From positions 156,633-220,632 of the forward strand of contig JAUXVD010000021.1 of the NCBI GenBank assembly GCA_030684575.1: DNA of 64,000 bases. The letters are read 5' to 3'. The notes under the pieces were generated by a model. That model saw only the letters and a list, made by a program, of their open reading frames with translations. It was not told where the DNA came from and searched no databases. This DNA comes from Nitrospirota bacterium (GTDB taxonomy: Bacteria; Nitrospirota; Nitrospiria; Nitrospirales; Nitrospiraceae). Of the stretch, positions 45,210-60,236 are shown one piece after another (positions within the stretch are counted from its first letter, which is position 1; the number at the start of each line of letters is the position of its first letter). A program made the translations under genes and the position numbers.

Positions 45210-45914
45210 CTATACCTCACTACCTTTACCCCTATTGCACTCATCGCAGAGTGTTCGGAGATTGTCGAGCAGTGTCTTGCCGCCCTGAAAAAACGGATTT
45301 ATGTGGTCGATGTGCAATGAAATACCGACATGAGTAGCAGGACTTCGCCCACACAGAACACATTTATACCTGTCTCGGGTTAGAACACGATACCGAAGTT
45401 TCATCGGTATGTTTCGTTTTTCTTCGACTTGAATCTCGGACATGACTTTGGGCTTATGGGGTCTGTCTGCCTGTGTTTCTGACTCAGGTTTCATCCCTTC
45501 ATTCTGGCGCGACACATTTTCGATGAATGCAGCGCAAGCATTAACCCAACCATTGAATCTTGTTTTATACGTCGTGTATGAATGTTTGGCCTCAACATTC
45601 TCCCACTCATCCTTGGATGGGCGATGTCCAAGTAGCCGCCAGACTCGGCCCAATTCTTCGAAGAGCTGCTCATTTGAAATTTGGGAACGGTCTTTCTTTA
45701 TTTTCTTTAGGTTGAGACCAGCTGCATCAAGCGCCGCTTGCCACGCTCCAAAACGAGATATAACTACGCTGCCTTTACATTCGGTTGCCTTTTCATCGAA
45801 CTCTCGCCGAGAAAAATGTCTATTGCCGTAAAGGTTGGCAACCCGACGTAGCTCGGTGATGATTTTCTCCGTCGGGTATTGATTGGCTCGGGGCCTTTCA
45901 AGCGTGTATCGCAT
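45210..45914 (-). CDS. HNH endonuclease with HNH-associated repeats
   Basis: A 234-residue protein with two HNH-associated repeat modules (about 10-65 and 70-125; SRFGAWQAALDAAGLNLKK and TRFNGWVNACAAFI) and a C-terminal HNH nuclease: Cys185/188, HIDH at 201-204, and CDEC at 223-226. The base composition is visibly more AT-rich than its neighbours, so it was probably acquired. ATG 45914; an upstream TTG at 45998 lies inside the palindromic repeat and is unlikely. It could be an invasive selfish nuclease or a defence protein. It has no visible partner methylase. Confidence 0.8.
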   Translation of the reverse strand: MRYTLERPRANQYPTEKIITELRRVANLYGNRHFSRREFDEKATECKGSVVISRFGAWQAALDAAGLNLKKIKKDRSQISNEQLFEELGRVWRLLGHRPSKDEWENVEAKHSYTTYKTRFNGWVNACAAFIENVSRQNEGMKPESETQADRPHKPKVMSEIQVEEKRNIPMKLRYRVLTRDRYKCVLCGRSPATHVGISLHIDHINPFFQGGKTLLDNLRTLCDECNRGKGSEV

Positions 45915-50154: not shown

Positions 50155-50172
50155 ATATCCACATTTTCAGCC

Positions 50173-50201
50173 TTGACTTTGTGTGGAAAAACTCGTAGTC
50201 T
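50173..50201 (+). promoter_or_regulatory. Candidate promoter of the DsrE-family genes
   Basis: TTGACT (50173-50178), 17 bases, TAGTCT (50196-50201), 57 bases before the ATG at 50258. A near-perfect DnaA box (ATATCCACA, 50155-50163) lies just upstream, so DnaA could influence it. Confidence 0.4.
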
Positions 50202-50257
50202 CGCCCAGACGTTCATTCATAAGCAATTGATTGTATTGACCTCTTTAGTGGATTGCC

Positions 50258-50578
50258 ATGGCGGATCGCAAACTGGGTCTCTTGTTATCCACAGCCCCTT
50301 CTCATCCTAGCGTTGAGACCGTCGTCCAACTGGCTCAGGCAGCTTTACGCCGGGGGGTCGAGGTCTATCTCTATCTCATCGATGAAGGGGTGAAGAGCGC
50401 GATCGATCCTCGTTATATCGGCTTGATCAATGCCGGGGTGAAGATGTCCGTCTGCGCCTATGGTTGCCAGCAACATGGCGTTCCCACGGCCTCGGTCGAT
50501 TCGAGGGTCTCACTATCCGGGTTAGTCGTGTTGTCCGGAATTATCGATGGGTGCGATCGCTTTCTCGCATTTACGTAG
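50258..50578 (+). CDS. DsrE/TusD-like protein
   Basis: A 106-residue DsrE-family protein. The Cys pair SVCAYGCQQHGV (Cys66/70) sits where the sulfur-carrying Cys of TusD/DsrE is found. It would relay sulfur from a persulfide donor, in tRNA thiouridine or sulfur-oxidation pathways. The first of three related genes. A perfect DnaA box lies inside it (50285-50293). Confidence 0.75.
   Translation: MADRKLGLLLSTAPSHPSVETVVQLAQAALRRGVEVYLYLIDEGVKSAIDPRYIGLINAGVKMSVCAYGCQQHGVPTASVDSRVSLSGLVVLSGIIDGCDRFLAFT
50285..50293 (+). other. DnaA box within the DsrE-like gene
   Basis: A perfect TTATCCACA on the plus strand, 1.2 kb before dnaA. It may act as a distal site of the origin or be a chance match in coding sequence. 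Confidence 0.5.
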
Positions 50579-50607
50579 CGGGTGTTTCTCACTGCCGTTG
50601 ATGTTCT

Positions 50608-50949
50608 ATGTCTAAACGAATCGCTGTCGTCATTTCAGAAGATCCTTGTGTGACCGCTCGTCCTGTTGAGGCCCTTCGTATTGCGTTGGGACTCTGTGCC
50701 GGAGATCATGAGACGACCGTCGTGCTCCTTGGGCAGGCTCCCAAGCTTCTGAGAGAGGATACAGATGAGATCATCGATGTCGATATCCTTGAAAAGTATC
50801 TTCCTTCGTTTAAACATCTCGCTGTCCCCTTTATCGTCGAGGCAGGGACGGCAATGGATACCTGGTCTGATAGTTTCTCCGTCACGACTCGTACAGCAGA
50901 TGAAATTAGGCAGTTGATTCAAACCGTTGATAGAAGTCTCATTTTTTAG
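50608..50949 (+). CDS. DsrF/TusC-like protein
   Basis: A 113-residue protein of the same fold (RIAVVISEDPCVTARPVEAL, then ETTVVLLGQAPKLL). TusC/DsrF normally has no catalytic Cys and is structural in the hexameric complex. Adjacent to the TusD-like gene by 29 bases. With the next gene it forms a complete DsrEFH or TusBCD set. Confidence 0.7.
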   Translation: MSKRIAVVISEDPCVTARPVEALRIALGLCAGDHETTVVLLGQAPKLLREDTDEIIDVDILEKYLPSFKHLAVPFIVEAGTAMDTWSDSFSVTTRTADEIRQLIQTVDRSLIF

Positions 50950-50965
50950 AGAATGTTGGTGTGTT

Positions 50966-51208
50966 ATGGGTACGGCGCTCTATCTTCTTCGACAACAGCC
51001 AGCTGGTATCTCTGTATCGCTCTTTCACCCCAGCGATGCAGACATGGATATCCTGTTTGTCGAGCAGGCAATAACGACAGCCCCTTCTTCCGTGAAGGGA
51101 TTGGCGGTATCAGTTGAGAAAGATGTTGTCGGCTCTTCATGTCCGACAATCACTTACGACGATCTTGTTGAGCGCATCTTCACATCGGAACATGTCATTG
51201 TGGTCTAG
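50966..51208 (+). CDS. DsrH/TusB-like protein
   Basis: An 80-residue protein. The end (TITYDDLVERIF) matches the TusB/DsrH pattern. ATG 50966; an in-frame start at 50927 would overlap the preceding gene. It completes the trio; no TusA or DsrC gene is visible in the window. Confidence 0.65.
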   Translation: MGTALYLLRQQPAGISVSLFHPSDADMDILFVEQAITTAPSSVKGLAVSVEKDVVGSSCPTITYDDLVERIFTSEHVIVV

Positions 51209-51520
51209 GTGGTGGTGCATTCTTCTCCGATGTTATGTGTGTCGTAATAAGAGTTCGTCGTAGGAGTAGGAGTAAGAGTAGGCTCTGTGGATATTGTGGA
51301 CGGCGAGCAAGTTGTTGATTCGGTAGATTTTCTTGCGCGCGCTCTTTGTGGAGAGACTTGGGGATTGACTCTGAGTAACCCCTGCATGCACAGTCAGCAA
51401 CCTGTGTCGACTTGAGTGCTCGCCTTTGGCTGGAATCGTCCGCGGGATGGAAAAATTCGAAACCTCGCAAGAAAACACTGCGAAGAACCAGGTTATCCAC
51501 AGGTGTGAATAAGTCTGTGT
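51209..51520. other. Probable chromosomal origin of replication (oriC)
   Basis: The 312-base gap before dnaA. It contains TGTGGATAT (51286-51294), TTATCCACA (51493-51501, perfect) and TGTGAATAA (51504-51512), a partial TGTGGAGAG (51347-51355), and the trio run described next. Gene orientation flips about 2.5 kb upstream, and dnaA lies directly downstream. Together these support oriC. Confidence 0.8.
51261..51294 (-). other. Origin unwinding element: DnaA box, GC spacer and DnaA-trio
   Basis: On the minus strand the order is ATATCCACA (51294-51286), a four-base spacer GAGC, then triplets CTA CTC TTA CTC CTA CTC CTA (51281-51261), followed by a mildly AT-rich stretch. This matches the known basal unwinding layout of Bacillus subtilis, in which DnaA moves from the box onto a strand of repeating CTA-type triplets. 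The seven triplets keep the central T (A on the plus strand) in every one. Confidence 0.7.
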
Positions 51521-52885
51521 ATGAAGAATGATACAGAAACGATGACTCTGGTGAATGTATGGCAAGACGCCTTGGCTTGTATTCAAGGGAAAGTGCCAAA
51601 ACAGGTCTACGATACCTGGTTTACGCCGATTCACCTCGAGCACATTGAAGACTCAACTGCGCAACTTGGCGTTCCCAATAAGTTTTTTGGTGATTGGCTG
51701 AGCCAGCACTATGGACCACTCCTGGCTGAGGCACTCTCGGCTGCCCGAGGCGGGGAAGAAACGGCGATCACCTTCTCCATCTTTCACAAACAGGTGGCAA
51801 AGCTGCCTGAAAATGGAACTACGCCGGCACCCACTCGTCAAAGTACCGCGACCAGGCCAAAGCGGGGGATCCAGCTTAACCCAAAATATACATTTAATAG
51901 TTTCGTCGTGGGTGCCGGGAACCAGTTTGCCCATGCCGCTTGTATGGCCGTCGCCGAACAGCCGGCCAAAGCCTACAATCCCTTGTTTATCTACGGCGAT
52001 ACCGGGCTGGGGAAAACCCACCTGTTGAATGCCATTGGAAACTATGTGGCGGAGCGGACCGATCTTCGCATTGCCTATTTGACGACCGAGCAGTTTACCA
52101 ACGAGGTCATTAACTCCATTCGATACGACAAGATGATGGATCTGCGGAAGCGGTATCGTCACATCGATATGTTGATGATCGACGACATTCAATTCCTGGC
52201 GGGCAAGGAACGGACGCAGGAGGAATTCTTCCATACGTTCAATGCCCTCTACGAAGCGCACAAACAACTAGTTCTCTCAAGCGATCGTTTTCCGAAAGAC
52301 ATGCCAGATATCGAAGAACGGCTGCGGTCGCGCTTTGAATGGGGCCTGATCGCGGATCTTCAGCCGCCGGACGTGGAGACGCGTATTGCCATCTTGCGGA
52401 AGAAATCCGAGGACGATGGCGTGTCGTTGCCGGAAGATGTCGTACAGTTTCTCGCGACCACGATGAAGAGCAATATTCGTGAGCTGGAAGGTTCGCTGGT
52501 GCGCCTCGGCGCCTATGCGTCGCTCACCGGCCAAACGATTACGCTGGAGATGGCAAAGACCGTGCTCCGGGATCTGATCGGCACCAAGAAAAAGATCGTG
52601 TCGATGGACGATATTCAGGAAACAGTGGGCGCGCGCTTCCATGTGAAGATCTCCGACTTGAAGTCCCGTCGCCGGAGTAAAACGCTGGTCCATCCCAGGC
52701 AGATCGCCATGTATCTCTGTCGGGAACTCACGGACTCCTCCTATCCCGAGATCGGGCGGCAGTTCGGCGGCAAAGACCATACGACGATCATTCATGCCTG
52801 CAAACAGATCATTAAAGCCAAAGACCTCGACAGTACATTGAGCGCCACGTTGGACAGCTTGAAGGAACAGATTCTACGAGCATGA
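51521..52885 (+). CDS. dnaA: Chromosomal replication initiator DnaA
   Basis: A 454-residue DnaA. Domain I (about 10-80), a short linker, domain III with Walker A GDTGLGKT (159-166) and Walker B LMIDD (218-222), and domain IV with SYPEIGRQFGGKDHTTIIHA for box binding. ATG 51521; no strong ribosome site precedes it. A perfect box upstream may allow autoregulation. It opens the replication cluster and is followed by dnaN after 25 bases. Confidence 0.97.
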   Translation: MKNDTETMTLVNVWQDALACIQGKVPKQVYDTWFTPIHLEHIEDSTAQLGVPNKFFGDWLSQHYGPLLAEALSAARGGEETAITFSIFHKQVAKLPENGTTPAPTRQSTATRPKRGIQLNPKYTFNSFVVGAGNQFAHAACMAVAEQPAKAYNPLFIYGDTGLGKTHLLNAIGNYVAERTDLRIAYLTTEQFTNEVINSIRYDKMMDLRKRYRHIDMLMIDDIQFLAGKERTQEEFFHTFNALYEAHKQLVLSSDRFPKDMPDIEERLRSRFEWGLIADLQPPDVETRIAILRKKSEDDGVSLPEDVVQFLATTMKSNIRELEGSLVRLGAYASLTGQTITLEMAKTVLRDLIGTKKKIVSMDDIQETVGARFHVKISDLKSRRRSKTLVHPRQIAMYLCRELTDSSYPEIGRQFGGKDHTTIIHACKQIIKAKDLDSTLSATLDSLKEQILRA

Positions 52886-59185: not shown

Positions 59186-59794
59186 ATGCACGAACAGGAT
59201 GTTTCTTCAACGACCCCTTCCGGACCTCAGCCGAAGAAGCCACTGGATACGGTCGTCAAGATGGCCCTGGGTGTGTTCGTCGGGTCGTTTGTCCTGATCT
59301 GGGGCGGGATGTATCTGAGCCGTCCCGATCGTTCGATCCCTCCTTTTAGCATCGGGTCGCAAGAAGAGACGTCCGTTGCGATTCATGTCCCCTCGTGGAC
59401 GAGCGATCAGGAAATTGAAACGCTGATCGAGCGCTTCCGCAAAGTCGGCCGCGAATCGAGAAATTTCGGGTCACTCAAAGTGAGACCGACGACGCCGGAC
59501 GATCCGACCAACCGCTACCGCCGACTCACCCTCTATGTGTTTTCCCTCGATGCCTGGGCTGATCCGATGATGCTGCACAAGTTTTTGACCGGTGAAGATC
59601 GTGATGTGCGTGACGGGTTTCGAAAATCCTTACGGGGGCTGTACCAGATTACTGAGTCGGACGAAGAAGGGCGGATCGGTCCCATGCTGGATGGTCCTGA
59701 GACTCCGGCGACGAAGGTCTATGCCCACCAGCTTTTCAAAGGTCCGCTCACCGTGCCGTTGGTCCAGGCGGTCGAGCCAGTGCCTGCGCCATGA
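59186..59794 (+). CDS. Membrane-anchored hypothetical protein
   Basis: A 202-residue protein with one helix at about 27-46 (VVKMALGVFVGSFVLIWGGM) after a Pro/Lys start, and a soluble remainder with IETLIERFRKVG and RRLTLYVFSL. It follows gyrA by 28 bases on the same strand. No family is recognised. Its last 47 bases overlap the convergent DciA-like gene. Confidence 0.65.
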   Translation: MHEQDVSSTTPSGPQPKKPLDTVVKMALGVFVGSFVLIWGGMYLSRPDRSIPPFSIGSQEETSVAIHVPSWTSDQEIETLIERFRKVGRESRNFGSLKVRPTTPDDPTNRYRRLTLYVFSLDAWADPMMLHKFLTGEDRDVRDGFRKSLRGLYQITESDEEGRIGPMLDGPETPATKVYAHQLFKGPLTVPLVQAVEPVPAP

Positions 59795-60236
59795 GTTGTG
59801 CCAGGTGATTGCGGAGCTCCGGGTCTTGAATCGTGGTCACATGTTCCGAGATCTCTGCGAGTAACGCGTCACTCGGGGGGAGGGCCGGCGCGAGATGCAC
59901 CTCGGGCAACGCAGCAGCACGGTTGGCTTTCGGCAACGATCCTACCCGCAAGACAATGTCCGTAATGAGTTCAGAACCAACGACTCTGTTAAGCTTTTCG
60001 ATGAGCGTCGGTTTCAGGAACGTAAGTTGGTGCAGCCAGACGCTGTTGTGGACTAAGAGGTAGAGTTTCTTGTATCGAATCTGATCGGGCCAGGTATTCG
60101 AGGCCATGGGTTCCCCGACGATCGAGACCCAATTCCGCCGTAAGCGGCTTTCGAGCAGCATGGCGTCGAATCCAAGACGGCGAGCCAGTGCTTCGAGGAC
60201 GCTGAATACTGAATCGTTGGAGCTGAGTCCGCCCAT
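59748..60236 (-). CDS. dciA: DciA-like (DUF721) protein
   Basis: A 162-residue protein with the DUF721 core: RNWVSIVGEPMASNTWPD, then KLYLLVHNSVWLHQLTFLKPTLIEKLN. DciA is the ancestral helicase loader that helps DnaB onto the origin in bacteria lacking DnaC. Its place beside the origin cluster fits that task. It converges with the 59186 gene, overlapping by 47 bases. ATG 60236. Confidence 0.8.
   Translation of the reverse strand: MGGLSSNDSVFSVLEALARRLGFDAMLLESRLRRNWVSIVGEPMASNTWPDQIRYKKLYLLVHNSVWLHQLTFLKPTLIEKLNRVVGSELITDIVLRVGSLPKANRAAALPEVHLAPALPPSDALLAEISEHVTTIQDPELRNHLAQLMAQALARPPGPTAR

Follow-up and report, generated by a model that had tools for sequence, protein, structure and literature searches.

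A DnaA-trio array with mixed adenine and cytosine centres ahead of dnaA, the predicted unwinding core of a Nitrospira origin

The closest described counterpart of the locus reported here is the basal unwinding system (BUS) of Bacillus subtilis, in which DnaA-boxes #6/#7, a GC spacer and DnaA-trios follow one another between dnaA and dnaN. BUS elements have been predicted across 2070 bacterial origins (Pelliciari 2021, PMC8287927). As laid out in the main text of that study, the rule allows up to 2 mismatches in the box and up to 4 in a tandem partner, which is optional, and asks for a spacer of at most 16 bp (13 being the commonest) and at least three consecutive N-A-N trios, 3'-GAT-5' being favoured beside the box; its authors already suspected deviant trios. 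Nitrospirota do not occur by name in this main text, and the supplementary table may list a few Nitrospira. For B. subtilis it was reported that, of the three bases of a trio, DnaA captures the first two, and that the central one counts through its amine: an A at this place can be replaced by C in vitro as well as in vivo, whereas G and T are poor substitutes (PMC10721633). In the eTrio of Thermotoga maritima, TAG repeats serve as the ssDNA target of a DnaA that is recruited from a five-box cluster (PMC10316083). In the open-access literature no study, and no binding, footprint or opening data, were found for any Nitrospira origin.

In the window, that is the whole stretch of 64,000 nucleotides analysed here, a small gene belonging to a DsrE-like cluster ends with its stop at 51208 and dnaA starts at 51521, which leaves a gap of 312 bp; dnaN, gyrB and gyrA, the last one named from its translation, follow dnaA downstream. 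The original prediction placed in this gap, on the minus strand, a box with one mismatch, the letters GAGC and seven CTA/CTC/TTA triplets, and this description proved exact to the nucleotide. Two parts had been absent from it, namely the weaker abutting box CCGTCCACA and the in-frame CGA-CGA triplets. From 51303 to 51261 the complete minus-strand string reads CCGTCCACA-ATATCCACA-GAGC-CTA-CTC-TTA-CTC-CTA-CTC-CTA. The features are collected in the table.

Features of the predicted origin region, in coordinates of the window
Feature	Coordinates	Strand	Basis or remark
Flank past the trios, proposed extension zone of opening	51225..51254		stability profile: weakly AT-rich here
Two extra central-C trios, 5'-TCG-TCG-3'	51255..51260	+	box strand CGA-CGA; in frame with the array
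Seven central-A DnaA-trios, 5'-TAG-GAG-TAG-GAG-TAA-GAG-TAG-3'	51261..51281	+	box strand CTA-CTC-TTA-CTC-CTA-CTC-CTA
Spacer GAGC, box to trios	51282..51285	-	sequence
Proximal DnaA box, ATATCCACA, 1 mismatch to TTATCCACA	51286..51294	-	sequence
Distal DnaA box of the tandem pair, CCGTCCACA, 3 mismatches	51295..51303	-	abuts the proximal box, zero gap
Consensus DnaA box TTATCCACA beside the dnaA start	51493..51501	+	box at the same place in 27/28 genus loci
DnaA box TTATTCACA, 1 mismatch, facing the box at 51493..51501	51504..51512	-	box at the same place in 26/28 genus loci
dnaA, initiator	51521..52885	+	TIGR00362, E 3e-170

On the trio strand the CTA/CTC/TTA triplets read 3'-GAT/GAG/AAT-5'. 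The locus agrees with the published BUS pattern in its boxes, ATATCCACA with one mismatch and the abutting CCGTCCACA with three, in its spacer, which measures 4 bp from the proximal and 13 bp from the distal box, and in its seven consecutive N-A-N trios, the first of which is 3'-GAT-5'. The element order, the tandem boxes, the short spacer, the box-proximal 3'-GAT-5' and the dinucleotide-capture residues are all shared with B. subtilis, and the suggested likeness to the B. subtilis BUS was borne out for the box pair, the spacer length, the triplet type and the DnaA residues. However, the B. subtilis BUS lies between dnaA and dnaN, whereas the Nitrospira element is found upstream of dnaA and is predicted to open away from it. 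It differs further in the T/G-alternating third base of trios 1-4, in the central C of the distal trios, in an Asn196 to Asp replacement in DnaA, and in that, according to the stability profile, the trio array itself is not especially AT-rich. The flank past the trios is 60-70% AT in relatives by the same profile. Judged by its sequence, place and conservation, the element appears to be a genuine BUS, and its mixed A- and C-centred trios, together with the substitution signature described below, would be new relative to the known ones.

The DnaA encoded in the window aligns nearly over its full length to the B. subtilis protein from PDB 8BTG. The equivalents of B. subtilis Glu183, Asn187, Ile190, Ile193, Arg202, Lys222, Glu228 and Arg264 are the same residues in this protein and do not vary among the loci of the order that were read, only loci with a cleanly read protein being counted. 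Among the residues of oligomer formation and dinucleotide capture the exception is the equivalent of Asn196, which is residue 203 (window 52127-52129) and is Asp in all Nitrospiraceae read. B. subtilis Asn196 contacts the third, uncaptured base of the trio; the Asp at residue 203 may accompany the T/G freedom of this base.

The placement at a replication origin was also upheld by the GC skew, whose sign switches at dnaA in the contig of the window and in one complete relative; on the basis of this switch the element lies at the origin. In the contig the skew is mostly negative leftward and positive rightward, and the cumulative minimum of the window falls at 45,808, 5.5 kb from the element. 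In the complete chromosome of the same-family relative (4.08 Mb, DnaA 84% identical), for which the skew was taken from 30 sampled stretches, the sign flips at 920-950 kb, where dnaA is found at 939 kb, and flips back at 2.92-3.2 Mb, approximately half a chromosome from dnaA. In two complete chromosomes of the family, those of N. defluvii and N. moscoviensis, the array immediately precedes the numbered start, with dnaA following.

We assign a probability of about 0.88 to the reading that the element is the DNA-opening core of oriC in this Nitrospira genome and works by a DnaA filament on the trios. If its function as a BUS follows the B. subtilis system, DnaA-ATP would bind the abutting boxes (51286-51303) on double-stranded DNA and would polymerise leftward over nine trios of the plus strand, each protomer taking up one trinucleotide. 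In each trio the protein would capture two bases, the first and the second (3'-GA-5' or 3'-GC-5'), and the extraction of bases would stretch the plus strand and open the duplex toward 51225. Helicase loading on the opened duplex is expected to follow, DciA, encoded 8 kb away, being the likely helicase operator. The degenerate boxes of several sister genera, the unremarkable AT content of the array and the Asp in place of Asn196 count against this reading. The original prediction had offered a strand and a start point for opening. Its reading of the element on the minus strand stands, but the strand predicted for DnaA assembly is the plus strand (5'-TAG/GAG/TAA-3'), with opening leftward, away from dnaA. 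For Nitrospira, a group of central importance in nitrification, this supplies a predicted strand, start point and direction of chromosome opening.

The triplet run is conserved in relatives with the same dnaA neighbourhood, a point on which the proposal had been staked beforehand. The position, approximately 200-260 bp before dnaA and on the same strand, is kept in the genus, the family and the order, and more weakly in the phylum. A dnaA start could be read in 27 genus loci, and 25 of them carry, on the minus strand and 226-229 bp before dnaA, a box with at most two mismatches and triplets starting with CTA (TTA in one); in the remaining two (L013 and L017) the array can be aligned and the box or a triplet is broken. 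The distal box is close to nnATCCACA in most genus-mates, the tandem pair was recovered in 54 distinct loci of the family, and the spacer, in genus and family, is conserved in its length of 3-4 bp and variable in its letters. In the sister genera of the family the triplet array stays and the boxes drift; several of these genera have array-adjacent boxes with 3-5 mismatches, which suggests that the box part of the element is weaker than the trio part. Most of the sister-genus arrays escaped a strict box-first scan and were recovered by a triplet-first one. A significant minus-strand array was present at about -195 to -245 in 12/12 genomes of the second family of the order. The minus strand outperformed the plus strand in the order, class and phylum sets (Wilcoxon p 2e-4, 0.01 and 0.005, respectively), the signal in the rest of the class and phylum being weaker and consisting mostly of CTA/TTA repeats.

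E. coli-type ssDUEs combine 13-mer AT-rich repeats containing TTATT with a remote box cluster. In an informal look at the intergenic sequence no 13-mers were noticed, and remote boxes near the dnaA start are present. The triplets could be ssDNA targets of DnaA molecules looped in from the distant pair at 51493-51512, by recruitment of the E. coli or Thermotoga kind, and not the track of a continuous filament from the adjacent boxes. The dnaA-proximal boxes, near-consensus and almost invariant next to array-adjacent ones that are degenerate in some genera, speak for such looping, and the Thermotoga TAG repeats work in this way (PMC10316083). However, the tandem box pair with its 3-4 bp spacer stays beside the trios family-wide, in the orientation that B. 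subtilis requires (PMC6669920), and we consider looping unlikely. The Thermotoga system, alike in its TAG repeats, differs from Nitrospira in that its DnaA comes from the five-box cluster, whereas here the box pair directly abuts the trios (PMC10316083).

Past the central-A trios the array goes on as CGA triplets, which are 3'-GCT-5' on the trio strand. CGA-CGA (51260-51255) was counted in the array because relatives have TAG trios in place of such triplets at corresponding positions. The trio frame was set on positions 1 and 3 only and the centre was left free, which avoids a frame-choice bias; the centre was A or C in 95% of the trios in the genus, 90% in the rest of the family and 91% in the second family. 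At least one C centre occurred in every distinct genus array, in 58/63 of the other family arrays and in 6/6 scored arrays of the second family. In this lineage A fills most of the box-proximal positions 1-4, where C is rare, and C centres are common in trios 5-9. A B. subtilis origin that was engineered to carry C in place of A at the centre of trios 1-3 shares the tolerated, amine-bearing cytosine centre (PMC10721633); the C centres of Nitrospira, by contrast, are natural and lie mostly in trios 5-9. In 18/21 genus arrays and 31/63 other family arrays the third bases of trios 1-4 alternate, giving T-G-T-G when read on the trio strand and ACAC on the box strand, and avoidance of pure-repeat slippage is one possible cause.

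The clustering of the C-centred triplets at the far end, positions 5-9, would also be expected if only the A-centred triplets were trios and the CGA triplets formed a separate adjoining site, bound by a protein other than DnaA or recognised on the opposite strand. A helicase-loader site of the type of the DnaD recognition element would be one example, and the T/G toggling would then reflect keto-base recognition on the box strand. B. subtilis has a protein site, that of DnaD, opposite its trios (PMC13220808). Such a separate element is improbable to about the same degree as looping, since, from one sister species to another, CTA is replaced by CGA and vice versa at a given in-frame position, trio 3 included, and the replacement obeys the amine rule measured for DnaA.

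The substitution spectrum was determined in 47 independent sister pairs, each locus being used once. The 48 centre differences comprised 34 A/C, 10 A/G, 0 A/T and 4 others, while outside the array the counts were 115 A/C, 324 A/G and 150 A/T (A/C vs A/G, array centres vs outside: Fisher p 3e-11). Transitions are normally the commonest change; at the base predicted to be captured they are avoided, and the one amine-keeping transversion is favoured. Trio position 1 showed chiefly G/A exchange (25/35, p 0.003). Position 3 was near background (p 0.05 for any A/C excess), as expected because the third base is not captured. T/G swaps at positions 1 and 3 were dropped as a control, T being rare there. 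A mutation bias or context effect, acting without selection on base capture, might be invoked since CTA to CGA creates a CpG and the GC content of the genome is high. However, the A/C excess is missing at outside sites matched for neighbouring bases (odds ratio 6.2, p 3e-7) and at dnaA coding sites (odds ratio 4.8, p 5e-6), and with these controls a mutation bias behind the swaps was rejected as very improbable.

The trio centre swaps A for C, as the structure-based model of DnaA binding would predict, and across many species the captured centre changes mostly between the two bases that work in B. subtilis. The base-capture model of DnaA thereby gains natural evolutionary evidence; as far as could be found, the sister-pair signature would be the first such evidence for the amine rule. 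We think it rather likely that natural DnaA-trios follow the code N-[A or C]-N and not N-A-N, and that in the long mixed arrays of Nitrospirales A-centred trios nucleate beside the boxes and C-centred ones extend, kept by selection for an amine-bearing captured base; origins reported to be without trios may include such arrays. A rule restricted to central A, as given in the main text of PMC8287927, would stop at the first C-centred trio and count 2-3 trios in some Nitrospira. Demanding at least three N-A-N trios would reject 4/63 of the other family arrays and shorten most others. Because of the A/C centres in these arrays, the published N-A-N rule therefore undercounts arrays and would miss a few. 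Since the centre changes are mostly A/C, the results suggest that the search rule can be relaxed to N[A/C]N, which could be applied to the 15% of origins for which no trios were reported.

A box with at most 2 mismatches, followed after 2-6 bp by at least three YTN triplets, occurs once in the 64 kb window. In 120 dinucleotide-shuffled 64 kb windows the same box pattern was found 0.59 times per window with at least three triplets, 0.04 times with at least four and 0.008 times with at least five, and runs of at least seven triplets were found 0 times. The stricter pattern TATCCACNNNNNCTACTCYTACTC has one occurrence across the 3.79 Mb assembly. A chance origin of the element was ruled out by the shuffles, the single copy and the conservation. 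That the triplet run, repetitive and intergenic as it is, might be a simple-sequence or regulatory repeat unrelated to replication has a practically negligible likelihood and was rejected by the shuffles, the uniqueness and the conservation, its strand, distance and box adjacency being fixed over the whole order.

Several other features were observed around the origin. Between the trio region and dnaA, the plus-strand block GGGGATTGACTCTGAGTAACCCCTGCATGCACAGTC (51355-51400) is strongly conserved in the genus and contains an inverted repeat, which in many relatives reads GACTCTG...CAGAGTC; the block may serve a regulator or belong to the dnaA promoter. DciA is the ancestral helicase operator, and its gene (PF05258, E 2e-17) is located near the origin at 59748-60236 on the minus strand. 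Three more DnaA boxes with 0-1 mismatch lie 1 kb upstream within 50155-50293 (at 50155, at 50182 on the minus strand, and a perfect one at 50285), around the junction of hisS and the DsrE gene, and could form a second box cluster. The region 50258-51208 between hisS and dnaA holds three small genes, two of them with DsrE/DsrF-like domains, possibly a sulfur-relay cluster.
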